Source of the DNA: Streptomyces sp. NRRL S-118
Lineage (GTDB): Bacteria > Actinomycetota > Actinomycetes > Streptomycetales > Streptomycetaceae
DNA length: 43,926 bases
Assembly (NCBI RefSeq): GCF_000716335.1
Contig: NZ_KL591013.1
Coordinates: forward strand, 129,630 to 173,555
Direction of reading: 5' to 3'
The translations under genes and the position numbers were made by a program. Position 1 is the stretch's first letter. The number at the start of each line of letters is the position of its first letter. The notes under the pieces were generated by a model, which was not told where the DNA came from, searched no databases, and saw only the letters and a program-made list of their open reading frames with translations. Of the stretch, positions 15,440-27,967 are shown in pieces.

Positions 15440-16351
15440 ATGCCGTACACCGCCACGGCCCGTCGCCCGCGCTGGTGGCCCGAGCTGCTGCTCATCGCGG
15501 TGGTGTACGCGGCCTACTCCGGCGGCCGGCTGCTCGCCCGCGGCGACGTCACGACCGCCGTCGACCACGGGCTGGCGATCCTGCGGCTGGAGCAGCTCCT
15601 CCACCTGGACGCCGAGCACCCGCTGAACCGGCTGTTCACCGGCACCCCCGCGCTCGGCATACCCGCCGACTTCGCGTACGCCACGCTGCACTACCTGGTC
15701 ACCCCGGCGGTCCTGGTCTGGCTCTTCCGCCGCCGGCCGCTGCGCTACCGGGCCGCCCGCACCTGGCTGATGGTGTCCACGCTGCTCGGGCTCGTGGGTT
15801 TCACCCTGATGCCGACCTGCCCGCCCCGGTTGCTCGACGCCGGGCACGGTTTCGTCGACACGATGGCGCAGTTCAGCTCGTACGGCTGGTGGGGCGGCGA
15901 GGCGAGCGCCCCGCGCGGGCTCGGCGGCATGACCAACCAGTACGCGGCGATGCCGAGCCTGCACGTCGGCTGGGCGCTGTGGTGCGGGGTGATGGTGTGG
16001 CGGTACGGGCGTACGCCGCTGCTGAAGGCGCTGGGGGTCGCGTACCCGCTGCTGACGGTCGTCGTGGTCATGGGGACGGCCAACCACTACTTCCTCGACG
16101 CCGTGGCGGGGTGCGCCGTGATGGGCCTCGGACTGGTGCTCGCGCGGCCCGCGACGCGGGGCGCGGACCGGTTGCGGGGTCTGGCGCGGGAACGTTTCGG
16201 CGGACATTTCGGCGGACGTTTCGCCGGGGCCGGTACCACGGGCGCGTCCCCGATTGTCAGTGGCGGATGCGAGACTTCCGCGGGTGAGCGAATACCTGGG
16301 CAGCGGGCCCGATCGGCGTCCGCAGACGACACTCCGGCAGCGGCTCGCTGA
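15440..16351 (+). CDS. PAP2-family membrane phosphatase
   Basis: A 303-residue integral membrane protein of the PAP2 superfamily, in the subgroup often annotated as inositolphosphotransferase or Aur1/Ipt1-like. Several hydrophobic helices are visible, starting with [14 protein letters not shown]. The catalytic motifs are [11 protein letters not shown] and [10 protein letters not shown], which provide the two histidines and the aspartate. The segment [10 protein letters not shown] precedes them as in relatives. The ATG at 15440 is preferred over the upstream 15341 start because the added 33 residues look non-coding and would cross the divergent promoter. The last ~68 bases, an unconserved hydrophilic tail, overlap the start of the nuclease gene. 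The lipid substrate is unknown. Confidence 0.85.
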
Positions 16352-17417
16352 GCTGCGGGGTCCCGCCGCCGCGCCGCATCCGCTGGATGCCCGCGCGCTG
16401 GCCGCGCTGGCCGCGAACCCCGGCTGCCGGCGCCGCGCGCTGCTCGACGGCGCGGGGGTCGACAAGGCCGCTCTGGCGTCCGCGCTCGGGGCGCCGTCGG
16501 GCTTCGGCCAGTCGCAGTTCGCGTTCATGCGCGGCAACGCCTTCGAGGCGAAGGTCAAGGCCGACGGCGGCGCGGAGCTGCTGCGGCTGCTGGGCGTGGA
16601 CGGCCGGGAGGACGTACGCGTACCGGACCTGGCGGCGGCCGGGCCCCAGGGCCGCGCGGCGCGTACGGCGCTGGCGCTGCGCGAGGCGACCGAGGCGGGC
16701 GGCGAGGGCGCCTGGTCGCTGCTCGACCACCCGATGCTGGCCCTGGAGGTCGCCGGGTCGCCCGCGTACCTGGAACCGGACGCGGTCGTGGTGAGCCCCG
16801 ACGGGCGGTGGACGGTCGTCGAGATCAAGTCGTTCCCGATGATCGACGGCTCCGCCGATGCCGCGAAGGTGGGCGCCGCCGCCCGGCAGGCCGCCGTGTA
16901 CGTGCTGGCGCTGGAGCGGGTCGCCGCGCTCACGCAGGGCGCCGAGGTGGCGCACTCCGTGCTGCTGGTCTGCCCCCGGGACTTCTCCAACCAGCCGACG
17001 GGGTCGGTCGTCGACGTGCGCAAGCAGCTGTCGGTGACGCGGCGGCAGCTCGCGCGGCTGACGCGCATCGAGGACATCGCGGCCGCCCTGCCGGAGGGGG
17101 TCACCTTCGATGTCGAGACCTGCTCGGCGGACCAGTTGTCCGCCGCGGTGGACGCGGTGCCGCACGCGTACGCGCCCGAGTGCCTCGCCGCGTGCGAGCT
17201 GGCGTTCCACTGCCGCGACCGGGCGCGGTCGGCGGGCGCGGTGGAGGCGCTCGGGCGGTCGCTGCGCGGCGAGCTGGGCGGGCTGACGACGGTCGGCGCG
17301 GTGCTGTCCGCGGCGCGCGGCGAGACCGGCGACCCGGACGACCCGGCGGTGGCCGCGCTGCGGCGGGCCGCGGCGCTGCGGGCGGAGTCCCTGGAGGAGG
17401 CGGGCGCGTGTCGCTGA
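16284..17417 (+). CDS. Cas4/RecB-type Fe-S nuclease (PD-(D/E)XK)
   Basis: A 377-residue nuclease with a complete RecB-family signature. GNAFEAKV at 84-91 is motif I, EPDAVVV at 164-170 holds D166, VVEIKSF holds E180 and K182, and QAAVY at 202-206 is the QxxxY motif. Four cysteines fit a 4Fe-4S cluster: C48 in [12 protein letters not shown], and C300, C304 and C310 in [11 protein letters not shown] (C-x3-C-x5-C). This is the arrangement of Cas4, AddB and the Dna2 nuclease domain. The GTG at 16284 is preferred; a TTG at 16254 would add ten residues. It overlaps the PAP2 gene upstream and the next gene by 10 bases, so translational coupling is likely. No CRISPR array or other cas gene is present. 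Confidence 0.85.
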
Positions 17418-19003
17418 TCGCCACGCTGGCGCGGCTGGAGGCCATGGAGTCGGGGCGGGCCCAGCCGCTCACCACGGTGCGGCACCGCCACCTGTCGCGG
17501 CGGCCCCTCGTCCTCGTACCGCTGACGACCGCCGGTGAGGCCGGTGCGCCGCTCGGGGCGCTCGTCGGGACGGATCCGGAGGAGCCGCGGCTGCTGGTCG
17601 TGCCGCAGCCGCGCGACCGGGACCTGAGGTTCGCGTTCCTCGCGGACCTGGCCGAGGTGGTCATCCCGTACCTCGACGCGTACGCCGACGACGTCGAGGC
17701 GGCCGAGCGCAGCGAGACCGACCCGGAGACCGGCAAGAAGGTCAAGGTGGAGGTCGAACTGTGCGCGGACGCGCCGCAGCTGATCGTGCCGAGCCGCGCG
17801 GGCATCGAGTACGTCCGGCTGCTGGGCCGGTCCATGCGGTTCCGGCGCACCGCCGAGCAGGACCCGGAGACGCCCTTCCCGGCACCGCCCCGGGTGCCGC
17901 TGCTGGGGCGGTGGCTGACGCACTACGGCGAGCGGGCCCGCGTGCCGGGCTCCTCGCTGCTGCTGGCGGCCACCGACCTGCTGAACCGGCACTGGGCGAC
18001 CGGCCAGTCGTCCCTGGAGGACCAGCACTTGGGGGCGCTGCTCGCCTGGATCGACCCCCCGGCGGGGACGGGACAGGCGGCCGCCGAGGCCGCGCTGCGG
18101 GCCGAGCTCGCGCGGGACCGGGAGGGGCAGCTGCTGTGCCCGCCGGCCGGCCCGGCGACCGACCCGGCGTTCGACAACCGGCTGCTGGCCCCCGCGATCG
18201 AGCGGTACGACCGGGCCCGGCAGGCGCTCGCGGCGGCGGAGGACGGCGGGACGGCGGACGAGCGGCTCGGTGAACTGCACCGCGCCGAAGGGGAGATCCG
18301 GCGGCTGCTCCTCACCCAGCTGCGCCCCACGTGGGAGGCGGTGTGGCGGGCGATCGAGCTGGTGCGCGCGCTGCCGCCGGGCGCCCGCGTGGCGGACCGG
18401 TGGACGCGGGACCGCTGGTCGTTCACCGGCCACCGGGACCGGGTGCGGGCCGGGGAGCCGCCGCAGCCGCGCCGCGACGACGCCGTGACGGCGGCGCAGA
18501 AGCTCGCCGCGCGGGAGAGCGCGCAGGCGCAGCTGGAGGCTCAGGAGGCGCTGGACGACCCGCTGGTGCTGGCGGGGCGTCGGCTCGCGGGTGAGGCGTT
18601 CGTCGCCGAGGTGGTGGACGTGACGATGGCGTGGTCGGAGGCCAGACGGCCGGCGCCGCGGCCGCTGCTGACCGTGCGCACCGACGACCGGCCGCACCTG
18701 GGCGAGGGGACGAAGGCGTACCGCTCGCTGGACGGCAAGCCGCAGACGGCGCAGTTCGTGCGGTACGAGGAGGACGGGACGCTGGTGTTGCGGGTGCTGG
18801 ACCGGATGGGGAGGGGCAAGGAGCCCGCGGAGGGCTCCGTGCCGGAGAAGGGCGACCGGATCGCCTGGACGCTGTTCGAGCACGACCAGCGGGTGGGCCC
18901 GAAGCTGCCGGACCCTGAGGAGACGCCGTGGACCCACGGCGGTCCGCCGCGTACCGACGCCGCCGAGAACCCCGACCCCGTGACGCCGGAGGACCTGCTG
19001 TGA
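17408..19003 (+). CDS. Unrecognised 531-aa partner of nuclease/helicase module
   Basis: I do not recognise this family. The GTG at 17408 overlaps the end of the nuclease gene. Early residues include a beta-rich region ([31 protein letters not shown]) and the segment [19 protein letters not shown]. The middle is long, alanine-rich and helical ([17 protein letters not shown], then [17 protein letters not shown]). The end is again beta-rich ([19 protein letters not shown] and [19 protein letters not shown]), reminiscent of the beta-barrel that precedes the motor core in UPF1/Dna2-type helicases. I see no Walker motif, signal peptide or membrane segment. Its stop overlaps the helicase start by four bases. 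The context implies it bridges or regulates the nuclease and helicase. Confidence 0.75.
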
Positions 19004-20328
19004 CGTTCGATCCTTCCGCGGAGGCCGCCCGGGCGACCCGCGAGATCCTCGACGACACGCTGCACGGCGACGCGCGGGGCGTCGTCGTGGACTCGCCGCC
19101 CGGCGCGGGGAAGTCGACGCTCGTGGTGCGCGCCGCGCTGGAGCTGGCGAACGCGGGCCGGCCGCTGATGGTGGTCGCCCAGACCAACGCGCAGGTCGAC
19201 GACCTGGTGCTGCGGCTCGCCGAGAAGGAGCCCGGCCTGCCGGTGGGGCGGCTGCACAGCAATGACTCCGACCCGTACGACAAGGCGCTCGACGGGCTGG
19301 AGAACGTGCGGAAGTCGGCGAAGGCGGCGGACCTGGCCGGCCTGGACGTGGTGATCTCGACGGCCGCGAAGTGGGCGCACGTGAAGGGCGTCGAGCCGTG
19401 GGGGCACGCCATCGTGGACGAGGCGTACCAGATGCGCTCCGACGCGCTGCTGACGGTGGCGGGACTCTTCGAGCGGGCGCTGTTCGTGGGGGACCCCGGG
19501 CAGCTGGACCCGTTCTCGGTGGTGGGGGCCGAGCAGTGGGCGGGGCTGTCGTACGACCCGTCGGCGAGCGCGGTGTCGACCCTGCTGGCGCACAACCCGG
19601 ACCTGCCGCAGCACCGGCTGCCCGTGTCGTGGCGGCTGCCCGCGTCGGCCGCGCCCCTGGTGTCGGACGCGTTCTACCCGTACACGCCGTTCCGCAGCGG
19701 CACCGGGCACGACGACCGGCGGCTGGCCTTCGGCGTGCCGTCGGACGGGTCGGGGCCGGACCGGGTGCTGGACGAGGCGGCGGAGTCCGGATGGGGGCTG
19801 CTGGAACTGCCGGCCCGGCGCACCCCCCGTACCGATCCGGAGGCGGTACGGGCGGTGGCGCTGGTGGTACGGCGCCTGCTGGACCGCGGCGGGGCGGCGG
19901 TCTCGGAGCGGTCCGCCGGGCCGGTGCCGCTGACTCCCGACCGGATCGCCGTCGGCACGGCCCACCGCGACCAGGCGGCGGCGGTACGGGCGGCGCTGGC
20001 GGAACTGGGCGTGGCGGGCGTGACGGTGGACACGGCGAACCGCCTCCAGGGGCGGGAGTACGACGTGACCGTGGTGCTCCATCCGTTGTCGGGGCGCCCG
20101 GACGCGACGGCGTTCCACCTGGAGACGGGCCGCCTGTGCGTGCTGGCGTCCCGCCACCGGCACGCGTGCATCGTGGTGTGCCGCGCCGGGGTCGCGGACC
20201 TGCTGGACGAGCACCCCTCGACGGAGCCGGTCCGGCTCGGCGTGACGGTGAAGTTCCCGGACGGCTGGGAGGCGAACCACGCGGTGCTGTCCCACCTGGC
20301 GGAACACCGGGTGGTCTGGCAGCCGTGA
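19000..20328 (+). CDS. SF1 (UPF1/Dna2-like) DNA helicase, AAA domain
   Basis: A 442-residue superfamily 1 helicase. Motif I is [10 protein letters not shown] at 31-40, and Ia is [13 protein letters not shown]. Walker B is [10 protein letters not shown], motif III is [10 protein letters not shown], and motif IV is LPVSWRLP. Motif V is [16 protein letters not shown] and motif VI lies in [13 protein letters not shown]. The motif pattern fits the 5'-3' SF1B (Dna2/UPF1) branch better than UvrD. The GTG at 19000 overlaps the previous stop in a GTGA junction and has GGAGG just ahead. It has no nuclease domain of its own; that function is supplied by the gene at 16284. Likely role: ATP-driven unwinding coupled to end processing, in repair or defence. 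Confidence 0.85.
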
Positions 20329-20439: not shown

Positions 20440-20790
20440 ATGGCGGAGACCGAGCGGAGCGAGCAGCGGCGGCTGAAGCCGGCGCCCCTGCTCTTCGAGC
20501 CTGCGGAGGCCGCCGCTGACCCCGAGCACTTCTTCGACCTGGAGTCGATGGACGATCCACGCGAGCTCCTCGCCCGCTCCACCGAGCTGGCGCTGGCGTT
20601 CCGGGCGGCCACCGACCGGGCCGTGGAGTTCCAGGCGATCGCGGCCGCGCAGCTCGCCGACCCCCGGCGCTTCGACCGGCTCACCGCCGCGGACATCGCG
20701 GAGCGCGCCGACTGGACCGAGGACTACGCCAAACGCATGGTCGAGTTCGGGCGGGACCTGCTGCGGGGCGTCGAGAACGACGGGGCCTGA
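20440..20790 (+). CDS. Conserved hypothetical helical protein, 116 aa
   Basis: A small acidic protein ([17 protein letters not shown]) that is almost entirely helical, with the stretches [35 protein letters not shown] and [23 protein letters not shown] recognise no function. The ATG at 20440 follows a GGAGGAGACGG ribosome binding site; an upstream start at 20371 would add 23 poorly coding residues. It lies 111 bases downstream of the helicase gene and 106 bases upstream of the Trypco1 gene, on the same strand as both. It could therefore be an accessory of either system or independent. I see no HTH signature, although the [17 protein letters not shown] segment superficially resembles one. Confidence 0.7.
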
Positions 20791-20896: not shown

Positions 20897-21235
20897 GTGA
20901 CAGTACTTGCGCGTGTTCCGATCGAGGGTGGCGGCACGATCCTCTTCGAGGCGGCACCGCAGCCGCCCTCCGAGGGGCCGGTGAAGGCGGGGCGGCTCGC
21001 GGACTCCGTACGCGACCTGCCGCACACCCTGCAGCAGGTGCTGCAACCTGTCCGGGACGCGTCCGCGGCGGTCCTGGACCAGCTGCGGCAGGCCGGCCCT
21101 GACGAGGTCGAGGTGGAATTCGGGGTGGACCTCTCGGCTCAGGCGGGCGCCGTCATCGCCAAGGGGGAGTCGGCCGTCCACTTCAAGGTGAGAGTGCTGT
21201 GGCAGCGGCAGGAGCCCGCGGGCAACACCGTCTGA
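20897..21235 (+). CDS. Trypco1 domain protein (trypsin co-occurring, CU044_2847 family)
   Basis: A 112-residue protein matching the trypsin-co-occurring domain 1 (Trypco1). It has an N-terminal beta hairpin (ARVPIEGGGTILFEAAP), a central helix (LPHTLQQVLQPVRDASAAVL), and the diagnostic beta strands VEVEFGVDLSAQAGAVIAKG and HFKVRVLWQ. These domains are known from genome-context studies of NTP-dependent conflict systems, where they accompany a trypsin-like protease or a STAND NTPase. That is exactly the arrangement here: the next gene begins 15 bases downstream and fuses both. The GTG at 20897 follows a GGGGTGGGGGT purine stretch. Likely a small regulator or partner of the neighbouring protease (inference from family context). 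Confidence 0.82.
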   Translation: MTVLARVPIEGGGTILFEAAPQPPSEGPVKAGRLADSVRDLPHTLQQVLQPVRDASAAVLDQLRQAGPDEVEVEFGVDLSAQAGAVIAKGESAVHFKVRVLWQRQEPAGNTV

Positions 21236-21250
21236 GGCCCGGGCCGCGGC

Positions 21251-24200
21251 ATGGGCAACGCAGGAGGGCCGGGATCCGGCGCCGCGGACCGTGGCGGCCT
21301 GCCGGACGGCGAGCCGGAGAGCAGGCCGGTGATCGGGATACCGGAAGACGGCGTACCGGAAGACAGCCGCCCGCCGGGGGGCGGTGCGGGCTGGGAACCA
21401 CCGCAGGTCCGCCGGCCGGCGGACCCCGGCGGCGCGGACGGCGTCGCGGCCTCCGTCGCACGGATCGAGACGGAGGACGGCCGCACCGCGGGGACCGGGT
21501 TCCTCGTCGCGCCGGACACGGTCCTCACCTGCGCCCACGTGGTGGACCTGGCCGGGGAGGGCCCTGGCGGCACGCTCCGGCTGGTCTTCCCGCACCTTCC
21601 TGGCATACCGCACACGAGAGCGCACGTCCTGCCCGAGGGATGGCGGGCCCCGGACGCCGAGGACGTGGCGGTTCTGCGTCTGGAGCGGAACGGCCCGCCC
21701 GGCGGTCAACCGGTGAGACTGGGTTCCGCGGCAGGGGTCCGCGGGCACCGGGTGCGTTCCTTCGGCTTCCCCGCCCAGGCGCCCCGCGGCGGGCACTTCG
21801 GCTACGGGCGGGCCGGCGATCTGCTGCCTGCCGCGAGCGGACCGGAAGCCGTCCTGCAGCTGACCGAAGCCAACGACCTGACGACCGGCTTCAGCGGCGG
21901 GCCGCTCGTGGACGATGTCACCGGCCTGGTGATCGGCATGGTCACCTCGATCACCCCTCCGGACGGGCAGAGCCGCGGCCTGAACATCGCCTACGCCACA
22001 CCGGCACACATTCTTCGCGCCGTCCGGCCGGATCTCGCGGAGCACGACTGCTGCCCGTACCGCGCGCTCGAACCGTTCACGGAGCGGCACGTCGGCTGGT
22101 TCCGCGGACGGCGGGCAGCCGTGGCGGAGACGCTGGCCCAGCTCCGCCGGCACCAGCAGGTGCTGTTGCTGCTGGGGCCTTCCGGGTCCGGCAAGTCCTC
22201 GCTCGTCCGGGCGGGGCTGCTGCCGGCTCTGGCGGACGGCGGGCTGCCCGGCAGCGACCGGTGGGAGCCACTGCTGGCGCGGCCCGGCCGGCACCTGGCG
22301 GCCGAGCTTGAACAGGCGGGGCTGACCGGGGCGTCGACCGACGGCATCCTGCCCGCGGTACGGCGGTGGTCCGCGGCTGGGCCGGACGGCCGGCGTCCGG
22401 TCGTCGTCATCGACCAGTTCGAGGAGCTCCTCACCGACTCAGGAGAACAGGCGGACACGCGTCTGGGCGCCGCCGAGGCGCAACTGGTGGACCTGATCCG
22501 CGCCCGGACGGCGGCGACCGTGATCCTCGTCATGCGTGACGACTTCTACCCCTTGCTGGCCGCCCGGGCCCCGCACCTGCTGAAGGAGGCCACGCCCGGG
22601 CTGTTCAACGTGCCGGCCACCTTGAGCGTGCCGGATCTGCACGCCATCATCACCGAACCGGCCCAGGCGGCCAGGCTCCACGTGGAGGCCGGCCTCGCGG
22701 AGCGCATCGTCTCCGACGTCCTGGCGGCCGATCCCTCCTCGGCCACCACCCGCCAGGCACCCGTCACCCTCTTGCCCCTCCTGCAGCTGACGCTCAGCCA
22801 GTTGTGGGAACGCCGTGATGACGGCCGGCTGACGCACCGCGCGTACGACAGGATCGGCGGCGTCACCGGATCCCTCACCACCTGGTGCGACACGGCAATG
22901 GACCGGTTGCCCGCCCCGCGCCGACCCGTCGCCCGGCGCCTCCTCACCGCTCTCGTACGCCCGGCCGATGCCACGCACGCCATCCCCGCGACCCGCCGGC
23001 AGGTGTTTCTCACCGATCTGCGCGCACTGGCCAGAGACGCCCTGGCCCCCGGCCGCGCCGGGGACGAGGAGTTCGACAGGGTGTTCGCAGCCCTGACCCA
23101 CCGGCGCATCGTGACGACCAGGACTGTCCGGCGGCCCGACGGGACGCCCGGCCCCGCAGCAGCCGAGCTCATGCACGAAGCCCTCATCCGCGAGTGGGGC
23201 GACCTGCGGAGCTGGATCGCCGCCGATCACCGGTTCCAGGACTGGCTGGACCGTGCCGGCAAGCAGTACGAGCGTTACGCCAGGAGTTCCGACCCCGGCG
23301 ACCTGCTGGACGGCACCGACCTGGCCGAGGGCACCAACTGGTCGAAGGAACGGGGCCTGCCGAGTGCCGTCTCCTCATTCCTCACGCTGAGCCGGCGGCA
23401 CCAGCAAGCCGAGCTGCGCCGCACGCGCCGGGTGAACGTCGCTCTGTCCTGCCTGCTGGTGCTGGCACTGGTCGCCGCCGGAATCGCCTTCTGGCAACGA
23501 CAGAGGGCTCTCACGGCCCAGCGGGTCGCCCAGTCACAGGAAATGGCGGCGCAGTATGCCGCGATCAAGAACAGCGACCCCGACCTCGCGGCGCTGCTCG
23601 CCGTCCAGGCGTACCGCATCAGTCCCACCGCCGAAGCGGTCGCCACCCTGCACGCCGCTGCCGCGGGCGAACTGCGCGGCGTCCTCACCGGTCACAGTGC
23701 CCCGGTGTACACGGCCGCCTTCAGCCCCGACGGACGGACCGTCGCCACCGGCGGGTTCGACGGCACGGTGCGCCTGTGGAATTCCTCGGACGGGACGCTG
23801 CGCCGGACGTTCACGCGTCACGGCAAGATCGTCGGATCGGTGGCCTTCAGCCCTGACGGGAACCTCCTGGCCTCGTCCAGCGACGACGGGGCGATCCGCA
23901 TCCGGGACGCGCAGACGGGTGACCTGCGAGCGACTCTGACCGGTCACGGAGGAGGCGTGGGCTCGGTGGCCTTCAGCGCCGACGGACGCACTCTGGCGAG
24001 CGGGAGCGGGGACCGTACCGCGCGTCTGTGGGACACGGCGACCTGGCGGATCCGGGCGGTACTGGCGGGGCACACGGAAGCGGTGCGCTCGGTGGCTTTC
24101 ACACCGGACGGCCATACCGTCACCACCGCCGCCCACGACGCGACGGTCCGGGTGTGGGACGCGGCCACGGGCCGGGCGCGCAGGACACTCCGCGCCGACG

Positions 24201-25552
24201 GACCGTTCTACGCCTCGGCCGTCAGCCCGGACGGCCGGACCCTCGCCGCGGGGGGCGACAGCGGCACGATCCTCGTCTGGGACCTGGCCTCGGGGAAGGT
24301 CAAGAAGTCGATCACCACCGACTTCCTCTTCGTCAACGCTCTGGACTTCGGGCGGGACGACCGGTTTCTCGCGGTGGGAAGCAACGACAACGCCGTCACC
24401 CTGTACGACACGACCACCGGCGGACTCCACGACTCCTGGCACGGGCACACGGACTACGTCCAGACGGTGGCGTTCGCCCCGGACGGCCGGACCCTCGTCA
24501 CCGGCGGCCAGGACCACTCCGCCCGCCTGTGGGACACCAGGAGCAACGATCCCGTGCGGGTCCTGACCGAACCCTCCGGGGTGGTGCGGGCGGCGGCGTA
24601 CAGCCCGGACGGCACCACGCTCGCCACGGGCGGCGGCGACGGCACCGTGCGGCTGTGGAACCCTTCCACGGGCCGGGCCCTGCGGCGGCTGACCGGCCAT
24701 AGCACCCTGGTGAGCTCGGTGGCCTTCAGCCCGGACGGCCGGACCGTCGCCACGGGCAGCAGCGACAGGACCGTCCGGCTGTGGGACACGGCCACCGGCC
24801 GGACCGTGCGGATCTTGAAGGGGCATACCGACCAACTCTCGGCCGTGGCGTTCTCGCCCGACGGCCGGACCCTCGTGACGGGCGGCATCGACGACACCCT
24901 GCGGCTGTGGGATGTCGCCACCGGACGCGTCCGCACAATGCTGACCATCCGCGGCGGTGTCCTCTCCGTGGCCTACAGCCCCGACGGCCGGACCCTCGCC
25001 ACCGGCGGTGTCATGGACAGGACCGTCCGCCTGTGGGACCCCGACTCCGCCAGGGTGCGGCGCACCATCACGGTGCGCACGCCGGGCGTGACCTCGCTGG
25101 CCTTCGCCCCGGACGGCCGCAGCCTCGCCACCGGGAGCGTGGTGGACTCGGCGGTGGGCGTGTGGGACGCCGCCACCGGGGCACCCCGCAGAACTCTGGC
25201 GCGACACGACGGGTACGTGGTCGCAGCGGCCTTCAGCCGCGACGGCCGCACGCTCATCAGCAGTACCAAGGAGGGCCAGGTCTACCTCTGGGACATGGCC
25301 ACGGGACGGCCGCACAAGATGCTCATCGGCCACGAGTACGGCGTGTACGCACTGACCGTGAGCCCGGACGGCCGCAACTTCGCCTCGGGCAGCGATGACG
25401 GCACGATCCGGCTGTGGCGTTTGAGCTCCCCCGACCCCGCCGGGGCGATCCGCCGTATTTGTCGGGCCCTGCACCGGGACTTCACGCCCACGGAGCGGAC
25501 GATGTACCTCGAAGGCCGGAAGGTGGACGGTCCGGTCTGCCCGCCGCGGTGA
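21251..25552 (+). CDS. Trypsin-nSTAND1-TM-WD40 conflict system protein
   Basis: A 1433-residue fusion. Residues ~65-258 form a trypsin-like protease with H96 (TCAHVV), D138 (EDVAVLRL) and S215 (GFSGGPLV) all intact. Residues ~269-700 form an nSTAND1 NTPase. It opens with CPYRALEPFTERH and FRGRRAAV, then Walker A GPSGSGKSS (309-317) and Walker B VVVIDQFEELL (D388), followed by winged-helix/helical regions. Residues ~728-748 form one transmembrane helix (VALSCLLVLALVAAGIAFW) preceded by RRTRR, so the positive-inside rule places the WD40 part outside the membrane. Residues ~810-1415 contain 14 WD40 repeats of the form VAFSPDGRTLATG...VRLWD, enough for two seven-bladed propellers. STAND proteins usually oligomerise on sensing a ligand; here that would activate the protease (inference). 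Confidence 0.9.
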   Translation: MGNAGGPGSGAADRGGLPDGEPESRPVIGIPEDGVPEDSRPPGGGAGWEPPQVRRPADPGGADGVAASVARIETEDGRTAGTGFLVAPDTVLTCAHVVDLAGEGPGGTLRLVFPHLPGIPHTRAHVLPEGWRAPDAEDVAVLRLERNGPPGGQPVRLGSAAGVRGHRVRSFGFPAQAPRGGHFGYGRAGDLLPAASGPEAVLQLTEANDLTTGFSGGPLVDDVTGLVIGMVTSITPPDGQSRGLNIAYATPAHILRAVRPDLAEHDCCPYRALEPFTERHVGWFRGRRAAVAETLAQLRRHQQVLLLLGPSGSGKSSLVRAGLLPALADGGLPGSDRWEPLLARPGRHLAAELEQAGLTGASTDGILPAVRRWSAAGPDGRRPVVVIDQFEELLTDSGEQADTRLGAAEAQLVDLIRARTAATVILVMRDDFYPLLAARAPHLLKEATPGLFNVPATLSVPDLHAIITEPAQAARLHVEAGLAERIVSDVLAADPSSATTRQAPVTLLPLLQLTLSQLWERRDDGRLTHRAYDRIGGVTGSLTTWCDTAMDRLPAPRRPVARRLLTALVRPADATHAIPATRRQVFLTDLRALARDALAPGRAGDEEFDRVFAALTHRRIVTTRTVRRPDGTPGPAAAELMHEALIREWGDLRSWIAADHRFQDWLDRAGKQYERYARSSDPGDLLDGTDLAEGTNWSKERGLPSAVSSFLTLSRRHQQAELRRTRRVNVALSCLLVLALVAAGIAFWQRQRALTAQRVAQSQEMAAQYAAIKNSDPDLAALLAVQAYRISPTAEAVATLHAAAAGELRGVLTGHSAPVYTAAFSPDGRTVATGGFDGTVRLWNSSDGTLRRTFTRHGKIVGSVAFSPDGNLLASSSDDGAIRIRDAQTGDLRATLTGHGGGVGSVAFSADGRTLASGSGDRTARLWDTATWRIRAVLAGHTEAVRSVAFTPDGHTVTTAAHDATVRVWDAATGRARRTLRADGPFYASAVSPDGRTLAAGGDSGTILVWDLASGKVKKSITTDFLFVNALDFGRDDRFLAVGSNDNAVTLYDTTTGGLHDSWHGHTDYVQTVAFAPDGRTLVTGGQDHSARLWDTRSNDPVRVLTEPSGVVRAAAYSPDGTTLATGGGDGTVRLWNPSTGRALRRLTGHSTLVSSVAFSPDGRTVATGSSDRTVRLWDTATGRTVRILKGHTDQLSAVAFSPDGRTLVTGGIDDTLRLWDVATGRVRTMLTIRGGVLSVAYSPDGRTLATGGVMDRTVRLWDPDSARVRRTITVRTPGVTSLAFAPDGRSLATGSVVDSAVGVWDAATGAPRRTLARHDGYVVAAAFSRDGRTLISSTKEGQVYLWDMATGRPHKMLIGHEYGVYALTVSPDGRNFASGSDDGTIRLWRLSSPDPAGAIRRICRALHRDFTPTERTMYLEGRKVDGPVCPPR

Positions 25553-26357: not shown

Positions 26358-27599
26358 TCACCGCGGGGTGATCCGGACGGTCCACGCGCCCGTGGGCGTC
26401 CGGTCCCGCACCTCCACCCGCGTGCCCTCCCCCGGCACCGTGAAGGTCTCCCCCACCCCCAGCGGCGCGTCGGCGAGCGGCGCGTACACCGAGCGGCCCA
26501 CGCAGGCGCCGGTGCCCGGGTGGGTGTCCACCACCTCGACCGGTCCGGCACCGGAGGACGCCTCGCCCCGGACGCGGTAGATCAGCACGCCTTCGGTGCA
26601 GGTGTCCACGTCGTTGCCGGTGGCACCCCGCGCCTCGATCGCCAGTGCGCTGTGCTCGCCCGTCCGGACGACGGCCAGCCGGGTGCCGACCGAGACGCCC
26701 CATGCGGGCGCGGCGGCGAGCGGTTCCAGCGTGAGCATGCTGGGGTCGCCCTCCGGCACGCACCGCACCTGGTGCGCTCCGAGCCAGCCCAGCTTCCACT
26801 TGTGCCAGCCGAAGAGCTCCGGGGCCAGCGCGAACTGGCTGCCCATGACGTCCCAGTCACCCACATGGGTGTCCCAGTCGCCCTTTCCGTCCATCGGGCG
26901 GCGGTACAGGTCGGGGAGGTCGAAGACGTGCCCGGTCTCATGGGCCAGCACGTTGCGGTCCGGCGGATGCCGCTCGAACACCGTGACGACCCTGCGGATC
27001 TCCGTGCCGTCTGCGTGCAGCGGGGAGTCGAGGTTGACGACCTTCGTCGCGTCGGAGTCCACCCCCGGCGCGTCCGGGTCGGCGACGAGGTAGACGATGT
27101 CGTACCGCGAGAAGTCCACCAGCGGATCGGCCGCGGCGAGCGCGTCGCGCAGGTAGTTCATGCGCCGCTGCGGCGCCCAGTCGCGCCGTATGGCGTAAGC
27201 GGTGGAGGCACGCGGCATCGGGATCCACTCGCGCCGCAGGTGGGGGCGGAGCGTGAACTTGCCGTACGAGGCCCGCTGGAAGAACCGGCTGGTGGCCGGG
27301 AAGTGGTCGGCGGCGATCTCGTCCGGGTGGGTCAGCGGCTGGGCGTCCGGGAAGGACAGGAAGAGCATGACCGCGTCGAGGTCGCGCACCGGCCGCGGGT
27401 AGGCGCCGTTCCAGGTGTCCAGGCCCAGCGAGTGGTGGGCGCCGGTACGGGGCAGGGCGCACGGCCCCGCCTCCGGCGCGGCGGCCGCGGGGCCGGCCAC
27501 CAGGCCCGTCGCGGCGAGCGCCAGGAGAGAGAAGAAGCCCGCGGCGGCGGACCGCAGGCGGGCGCGGTCCACTCCCTCGGGTGTCTGCTGACTCTCCAC
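26358..27599 (-). CDS. Secreted M6-like zinc metalloprotease
   Basis: A 413-residue exported protease. The N-terminus RARLRSAAAGFFSLLALAATGLVAGPAAAAP is a typical signal peptide region with a likely cut after AAA near residue 41. The zinc site is AHETGHVFDLPDLY (H220, E221, H224, with D230), the extended HExxHxxxxxD form of M6-type (immune inhibitor A-like) metallopeptidases. GDWDVMGSQFALAPELFGWHKWKLGWL downstream contains the Met-turn and matches the family. The C-terminal ~110 residues are beta-rich (LAIEARGATGNDVDTCTEGVLIYRV). Translation starts at GTG 27599 behind CGGAGGTCGAC. It is expected to degrade extracellular protein. It diverges from the cyclic-di-GMP gene. Confidence 0.88.
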   Translation of the reverse strand: MESQQTPEGVDRARLRSAAAGFFSLLALAATGLVAGPAAAAPEAGPCALPRTGAHHSLGLDTWNGAYPRPVRDLDAVMLFLSFPDAQPLTHPDEIAADHFPATSRFFQRASYGKFTLRPHLRREWIPMPRASTAYAIRRDWAPQRRMNYLRDALAAADPLVDFSRYDIVYLVADPDAPGVDSDATKVVNLDSPLHADGTEIRRVVTVFERHPPDRNVLAHETGHVFDLPDLYRRPMDGKGDWDTHVGDWDVMGSQFALAPELFGWHKWKLGWLGAHQVRCVPEGDPSMLTLEPLAAAPAWGVSVGTRLAVVRTGEHSALAIEARGATGNDVDTCTEGVLIYRVRGEASSGAGPVEVVDTHPGTGACVGRSVYAPLADAPLGVGETFTVPGEGTRVEVRDRTPTGAWTVRITPR

Positions 27600-27967
27600 G
27601 TCGACCTCCGGGGTGCGGGGATGCGGAACGTCCCACCACCCTGTGACGTTTTATGGTGATACGCCCTGTTCCGCTGCCCCACATGGGTGAGAGACGCGAC
27701 GCGCCGCACCCGTACCGGTAGTTCACGGACAGTCACAACCGATCAGGGCAGGGCGGGCCCCACCACACCCCTGCCAGACCCGTGCAGAAACGATCGTCCG
27801 GGGGTGTGGACGGCGCGCGGGGTGGGACGCTTCACACCCTCCGCGCCCGTCTCGCCCAGTGGCAACGCTGGAACGGTCACCGCGACAGCCTCTATGATCG
27901 GCACACTTTCGATGGCTGACCATTCCGACCACATCTGTGCGTCACAACTGCCCTGCGGGAGCGAGCG
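27600..27967. other. Intergenic region between divergent protease and cdgA genes
   Basis: These 368 bases hold the divergent promoters of the protease and the GGDEF-EAL gene. The protease ribosome binding site is at the left edge and GGGAG for the diguanylate gene at the right. I looked for a BldD-type box, known at cdgA in S. coelicolor, and found no convincing match. No ORF or RNA gene is supported. Confidence 0.6.

Follow-up and report, generated by a model that had tools for sequence, protein, structure and literature searches.

In the 43,926-nucleotide window of Streptomyces sp. NRRL S-118 analysed here (contig NZ_KL591013.1, positions 129,630 to 173,555), we describe three overlapping genes, A, B and C, which probably encode a three-subunit, DNA-damage-induced Dna2-type helicase-nuclease processing chromosomal DNA ends, flaps or stalled forks. 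From gene linkage, motifs, predicted folds and a promoter-like element we infer complex formation, the iron-sulfur (Fe-S) cluster, the polarity, the activities and the induction. The nuclease and the superfamily 1B (SF1B) helicase are not on one polypeptide; the three proteins are encoded by separate open reading frames (ORFs) overlapping by 10 bp (A/B, 17408-17417) and by 4 bp (B/C, 19000-19003), for which a first-pass annotation of this DNA had coordinates, frames and both overlaps right. Its proposal of a split Dna2-like module is upheld by linkage, motif conservation and predicted folds, with the reservation that the bridge protein is probably not wholly new.

Motifs and predicted folds of the three subunits

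Subunit A carries D166, E180, K182 and Q202xxxY206 together with C48, C300, C304 and C310, i.e. the PD-(D/E)XK signature and the four cysteines noted in the first-pass annotation, and of 166 A sequences in the alignment, 156 keep all nine catalytic and cysteine residues. The four-cysteine pattern of Cas4, AddB and Dna2 is kept in 165 of the 166, the remaining sequence having an X. Pfam returned PDDEXK_1 for A below the cut-off (E 0.0098), and the best fold matches of its predicted structure are DNA nucleases. These sequence features suggest A being a Fe-S RecB/Cas4-type nuclease with a putative Fe-S cluster and a predicted nuclease activity. The same annotation had considered that the enzymes might prove to be pseudoenzymes; judged by residues only, altered nuclease residues are confined to an accessory clade of six copies, linked to pPIWI_RE genes and described below, and to three single sequences outside this clade (L042, L078 and L155; n=166). 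Sequence searches of the PDB with A and with B yielded nothing real, and the A profile hit two engineered proteins at low E-values, which were dropped because the alignments spanned 31 residues only. Dna2 as represented by Pfam PF08696 was likewise discarded: it matched in 34 of 246 genomes of the class, four of them over the cut-off, with no Streptomyces among the matches listed, and the long ORFs concerned are presumably UvrD-plus-nuclease (AdnAB-type) proteins separate from A.

Subunit C is recognised by Pfam as AAA_11 (1e-10) and AAA_12 (2e-7), both above the cut-off, and matches SMUBP-2 (2e-8) and DNA2 (1.2e-6) in a PDB sequence search, its nearest solved relatives also including UPF1 and SEN1. 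UvrD_C_2 gave E 0.19 at 12.1 bits vs. 27.4, arguing against a UvrD-type SF1A motor. Of 167 C sequences, 165 retain all of thirteen helicase motif residues, among them the Walker lysine, the DE and the arginine of motif VI, in agreement with the earlier assignment of C as a UPF1/Dna2-type SF1 helicase. As the Walker A motif starts at residue 32, there is no room in C for a Dna2-style stalk and barrel, which in Dna2 sit between the nuclease and helicase domains (PMC4716839). No NCBIfam model matched A, B or C at its cut-off, the best for C being a PLuB helicase-like model (2.1e-14), and in PADLOC-DB 2.0.0 A and B were without any match, C matching helicase models weakly and in part (MkoC/MkoA; best MkoC, 1.5e-8). 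The hidden Markov model check suggested for this locus, run in Pfam, hence sees the helicase C, with A and B appearing only below the cut-off.

The middle protein B has the signature W-x2-G-Q-S-x2-E-D and one below-cut-off Pfam match (GPAT_C, 0.0098); Foldseek gave no match for B at E≤0.001 in PDB or BFVD. In structure comparisons, the best match of the predicted C-terminal barrel (aa 391-491) is the barrel of Senataxin/Sen1, and the predicted N-terminal part has an RNase H-like fold. A family search with 61 B sequences did not return RNase_H_2 (PF13482) at E≤0.1, and a profile comparison was without signal. The predicted C-terminal barrel resembles helicase domain 1B, the part lacking in C, which suggests that B likely completes the helicase begun by C and that the gene order follows the domain order of Dna2 (nuclease, stalk/barrel, 1A/2A). 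The description of B as an unknown bridge is to be revised in that a subunit whose C-terminal barrel matches an Upf1-type barrel is probably not wholly new.

Linkage, conserved neighbourhood and a promoter-like element

B was detected in 136 of 147 genomes of the order (Streptomyces, 129 of 132; others, 7 of 15). In the class, 70 of 394 genomes have it, representing 15 of 137 genera. Among the best 80 of 550 matches in named genomes, it also occurs in Streptosporangium, Nonomuraea, Micromonospora, Dactylosporangium, Nocardia, Actinomadura, Parafrankia, Kibdelosporangium, Actinospica and Streptacidiphilus. The genes lie in the order A-B-C on one strand at 50 of 50 order-level loci (L002-L031, the best-scoring matches, and L032-L051, 20 mostly divergent places chosen by hand), at 26 of 28 class-level loci (L060-L087, covering 28 of 31 non-Streptomyces matches) and at 78 of 80 named loci (the top-ranking 80 among 550 confirmed). 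This linkage is far above chance, and adjacency of the homologues, whose rarity would have spoken against a common module according to the first-pass annotation, is the rule in this gene-neighbourhood survey. A gap of 0.9-2.4 kb separates B and C in 4 of the 78 named loci; the two exceptions are L181, without a detected A and with B at a contig edge, and L157, without a nearby C. In three genomes with a non-adjacent C (G236, G327 and G513, the last being the genome of L157), a full-length match is present elsewhere (E 1e-213 to 2.6e-210), and searching eight genomes where B was not found for C gave nothing in four and only matches of 6e-6 or weaker in the other four. As an unlinked C is intact elsewhere and C is absent together with B, A, B and C travel as a set even when unlinked. 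Some genomes were entered twice (e.g. as L003 and L088), the rows of residue, tree and promoter counts thus not all being independent.

The surroundings are conserved as well. A histidine phosphatase gene, A-B-C, a gene for a 116-aa protein and the ORF 26358-27599 are each present in 12 of 12 core loci opened (L088-L099), the ORF at 27937 in 11 and PAP2 in 4 of these. The core copies form one clade in the B tree with 96 tips, all Streptomyces, for which the node support after re-rooting is low (0.286), and at least 12 Streptomyces of the order survey hold a second copy of 41-50% identity. We found no viral or phage relatives in IMG/VR contigs or phage records, and a viral or phage origin was rejected on these grounds. 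The sole apparent natural A-B fusion among the loci (L150) was dismissed as an artefact of runs of N.

Upstream of A lies TTGTCAGTGGCGGATGCGAGACT. At ≤1 mismatch, the window has no other match to TTGTCAGTG-N8-TANNNT, the consensus of the RecA-NDp promoter of the PafBC regulon; by chance, 0.09 matches are expected on average, and nine of 100 shuffled sequences contained one. All specified consensus bases are present in the element except the first of the -10 box. At 58 of the 92 core loci the 9-mer is exact and the -10 box has its A and T, and 24 loci have one mismatch, giving 82 at ≤1 mismatch; of the rest, seven have two mismatches and three have four to eight, namely L097, L150 (the latter with runs of N) and L165 (contig edge). 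None of 74 non-core loci has the element at ≤1 mismatch or below three mismatches, A loci with less than 150 bp around the upstream region being left out of the core and non-core counts. Under a looser scoring, scores of 2 or better were obtained for 82 of 168 upstream regions, compared to 12 of 840 random windows, which may include true sites; a motif count over joined loci gave 73 in 1.88 Mb, a number unsuited as a clean background as core sites and motif-centred loci are included.

The pattern has 43 exact sites in the NRRL S-118 genome, compared to 0 for a reversed-pattern control. One of these precedes recA and others precede genes for a uracil-DNA glycosylase (UDG), a PolI-type 5'-3' exonuclease, Lhr, a RadA/Sms-like protein, two RNase_T exonucleases, one family A polymerase and two proteins without family, these ten scanned genes having been picked as repair-like from 30 of the 43 sites viewed. 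Further sites precede genes not looking like repair genes (e.g., judged by eye, an ABC transporter, an HtpG-like and a ribosomal-protein-like ORF) or no clear gene; the 43 sites possibly represent a LexA-independent damage regulon in Streptomyces. In S. coelicolor, recA and SCO6735, a UV-inducible gene, have a RecA-NDp promoter (PMC5087735), and PafBC acts through the RecA-NDp motif in mycobacteria (PMC6789036). By its sequence, its conservation and its promoter-like position, the element before A can be read as a RecA-NDp (PafBC)-type promoter which would confer damage induction, and its end 7 nt before the GTG suggests a leaderless A mRNA.

Table 1. The A-B-C locus: positions of genes and elements within the window.
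Feature	Position	Strand	Remarks
A: PD-(D/E)XK nuclease, four-cysteine (iron-staple) pattern	16284 (GTG)-17417	+	377 aa
B: bridge subunit	17408 (GTG)-19003	+	531 aa; RNase H-like N-terminal part, long helices, C-terminal beta-barrel (all predicted)
B region coding for 1B-like beta-barrel	18578..18880	+	aa 391-491 (approximate), from aligned range of fold match
C: SF1B (Upf1/Dna2-type) helicase core 1A+2A, without stalk or 1B barrel	19000 (GTG)-20328	+	442 aa
Candidate RecA-NDp / PafBC-type DNA-damage promoter element	16254..16276	+	TTGTCAGTGGCGGATGCGAGACT; 7 nt between element end and GTG of A
Small conserved gene	20440..20790	+	116 aa; downstream of C; conserved core neighbourhood, no Pfam family

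The 116-aa gene (20440-20790) is without Pfam match and has a match downstream of C in all 12 core loci opened; it is part of the conserved core neighbourhood, membership in the A-B-C machine not being implied. At 20897-25552, 0.6 kb downstream, the window encodes a Trypco1 protein together with a 1433-aa trypsin-nSTAND1-WD40 protein. This pair is of the conflict type and gave no match next to the 12 other core loci opened. The earlier statement that no CRISPR array is present agrees with a direct-repeat scan of the window, which gave four families, two of low complexity and two of two copies, none of them CRISPR-like; cas genes were not searched in every ORF.

Relatives outside the core and single-chain enzymes

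At 48 non-core loci, for which genes were called by a simple custom script, we observed a family termed F3 beside A in 26, SbcD in 11, SbcC in 9 and pPIWI_RE-island genes in 6. F3 proteins are about 200-290 aa long as called (example L041:4277-5131), have no convincing Pfam match and occur in 20 of 147 genomes of the order, 16 of them matching strongly (1.8e-38 or better) and the genome of the window being without match; in G079 the F3 match lies away from the listed B. Six A-B-C copies (L036, L038, L040, L043, L044 and L045) adjoin PprPDDEXK-family and pPIWI_RE_Z-family genes, three of them also having a called pPIWI_RE Y/REase gene, with one representative per family scanned. These six form one clade in the B tree (0.996). 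Their A proteins keep all cysteines and have altered catalytic residues, five of six carrying E180L and K182R and the sixth (L045) D166Q, K182R and Y206S. The copies also adjoin a separate PDDEXK_1 nuclease. In contrast, the opened core loci have no pPIWI_RE-type neighbours. The published three-gene neighbourhood of pPIWI_RE systems consists of REase, DinG helicase and PIWI, and A-B-C genes are not mentioned in that part of the description (PMC3702460). Further non-core loci (L048-L050) hold a type IIG-like helicase, and L102, L103 and L105 contain long ORFs which by eye resemble caspase-type peptidase domains fused to SF1 helicases.

One plasmid A-B-C copy is located between SbcCD and DUF3375-DUF4194-ATPase genes, the latter being presumably Wadjet JetABC. 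Matches to C occur in 47 plasmid records, mostly from Rhodococcus and mycobacteria, three of them with a true B. Five opened plasmid loci with C relatives (to 5e-37) have no A (best A match E 0.055), and four of these five encode a B relative just before C (hhalign E 1.4e-6 as a group), of which only the Euzebya one was matched by tblastn (1e-8). Three plasmid loci have MoxR-type and VWA genes before the B-like gene; the order MoxR-type ATPase, VWA, small protein, B-like, C-like is seen in L198, L199 and L201, from plasmids of Mycolicibacterium alvei, Rhodococcus sp. 008 and Mycobacterium avium. The divergent relatives, often with upstream F3 and beside sbcDC, Wadjet-type or pPIWI_RE genes, probably serve defence, and B-C outside the core may be a motor whose cutter can be replaced.

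RNase_H_2 matches were found in 80 of 246 genomes of the class and in none of 21 relatives near Streptomyces. At each of 20 RNase_H_2 loci opened, one ORF codes for 1105-1435 aa including a Walker A motif, and the ORF of L227, the one sequence viewed by eye, also has an N-terminal Cys-rich nuclease-like part. These single-chain nuclease-RNase_H_2-AAA_11/AAA_12 proteins of Actinomycetes, named 'TM0106 family RecB-like', share with A-B-C the three-part order, an RNase H-like fold as predicted for the N-terminal part of B, and a helicase part matching the C profile with E 7e-24 from just before Walker A; they differ in being one chain and in that RNase_H_2 is undetectable by sequence in B. We searched for sequence homology of A and B with the fused proteins and rejected it for lack of signal, with weak local alignments on the barrel and the Cys region. 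Both types rarely co-occur: among non-Streptomyces genomes of the class, 71 strong RNase_H_2 carriers (E<1e-12) and 15 B carriers show zero overlap. In the family f20 (29 genomes), the only one of f20, f19 and f6 for which totals are known, B is present in 15, strong RNase_H_2 (E<1e-12) in 12 and both in one (G426), whose B is the most divergent found and adjoins sbcDC (L086). The split follows genera and represents few independent events. We infer that A-B-C may replace the single-chain nuclease-RNase_H_2-helicase enzyme of other Actinomycetes.

Model, alternatives and implications

Our data suggest a model according to which transcription would start just upstream of A, at the RecA-NDp (PafBC)-type promoter. 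The motor C (1A/2A) would move 5'-3' along single-stranded DNA, and B would dock on C, supplying the stalk and 1B barrel, which in single-chain Dna2/Upf1 helicases belong to the same polypeptide, and linking the motor to the nuclease. The strand would be threaded through and cut by A as a Fe-S-stabilised RecB/Cas4-type nuclease.

AddAB and AdnAB are also heteromeric helicase-nucleases with a RecB-family nuclease (Fe-S in AddB) and a role in end resection; their motors are of the UvrD-type SF1A, whereas C is an Upf1-type SF1B helicase. Bad of Geobacillus is a bacterial protein combining a four-Cys Fe-S RecB-family nuclease with an SF1B helicase and, compared by description only, has an extra conserved region between both that is lacking in eukaryotic DNA2 (PMC7430649). 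Bad is one chain, rare and sporadic, and located beside a methyltransferase in Geobacilli (PMC7430649), in contrast to A-B-C with three chains, a near-universal presence in one genus and a damage-type promoter element. Eukaryotic DNA2 likewise has a RecB-type nuclease, with an iron-sulfur cluster as in AddB, and its domain order nuclease, stalk/beta-barrel, 1A, 2A would parallel the gene order A, B, C; it is a single chain with an N-terminal OB fold, and the domain description consulted holds no counterpart of the large N-terminal part of B (PMC4716839). Judged from search listings, we found no paper on A-B-C in the open-licence part of PMC.

Beyond a repair helicase-nuclease as such, we tentatively propose that the core damage-response enzyme of Streptomyces is a heterotrimeric Dna2, with the helicase split over B and C plus a Fe-S nuclease, which replaces the single-chain enzyme and whose B-C is an exchangeable motor. 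On this still speculative proposal, B-C would work with a live A and a damage promoter in repair, and with an altered, probably dead A plus a separate PDDEXK nuclease in pPIWI_RE islands. It might further be accompanied by sbcDC or Wadjet-type genes in other relatives and have A replaced by MoxR-VWA on actinobacterial plasmids. Several observations weigh against our interpretation. As to the RecA-NDp reading of the element, the -10 box never begins with T in the 82 core sites, its first base being G, C or A (G at this locus), and an initial search, as reported, found the PafBC motif seemingly not conserved in S. venezuelae (PMC9380542). RNase_H_2 and B are found together at E≤0.001 in three genomes (G176, G269 and G329) and, within f20, in two genomes besides G426, at 5e-4 and 6.7e-4.

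The first-pass annotation had left the choice between end resection and defence. End or flap processing in repair fits the core locus better, because the locus is near-universal in the genus, syntenic and equipped with a RecA-NDp-type element; divergent copies elsewhere do have neighbourhoods of the defence type. We therefore regard it as unlikely that the core locus is an anti-phage or anti-plasmid defence fixed in Streptomyces, in which the helicase-nuclease would unwind and degrade foreign DNA, a role that has been proposed for Bad and the methyltransferase beside it. Such a function would fit the non-core loci with pPIWI_RE-island genes, sbcD or sbcC (6, 11 and 9 of 48) or the type IIG-like helicase, the plasmid copy between SbcCD and DUF3375-DUF4194-ATPase genes, the weak MkoC/MkoA matches of C and the Trypco1 and trypsin-nSTAND-WD40 genes in the window. 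It fits poorly with the synteny in the loci opened and the near-universal presence in Streptomyces, the lack of relatives in IMG/VR contigs or phage records, the restriction of the damage-type element to core copies and the lack of Trypco1/nSTAND matches at 12 other core loci.

We consider it less likely again that A, B and C are functionally separate proteins sharing transcription only. The heterotrimer is deduced rather than derived from direct interaction, plasmid loci hold C and B relatives without A, and C is unlinked from A-B in G236, G327 and G513; on the other hand, the genes overlap, are present together even when unlinked and absent together, and B apparently holds the domain lacking in C. 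An RNA- or R-loop-processing enzyme combining an Upf1/Sen1-type helicase with a nuclease is very improbable, since the best fold matches of A are DNA nucleases and the RecA-NDp-type element points to DNA damage, despite SMUBP-2, UPF1 and SEN1 standing besides DNA2 among the nearest solved relatives of C, the barrel of B matching Senataxin/Sen1 and pPIWI_RE systems being proposed to act on DNA-RNA hybrids (PMC3702460); R-loop removal is still compatible with a repair role.

As a summary, a near-universal Streptomyces operon, the middle protein of which carries no annotation beyond 'hypothetical', would acquire a role in DNA repair that can be tested, and this in a genus of industrial importance. 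If A-B-C is a three-chain Dna2, nuclease, barrel and motor would be removable one by one, which is impossible in the single-chain enzyme. The set of 43 RecA-NDp-type sites bears on whether Streptomyces own a PafBC damage response, a question that PMC9380542 leaves open. The accessory copies with altered nuclease residues would trace, in natural sequences, how a repair motor entered conflict systems.

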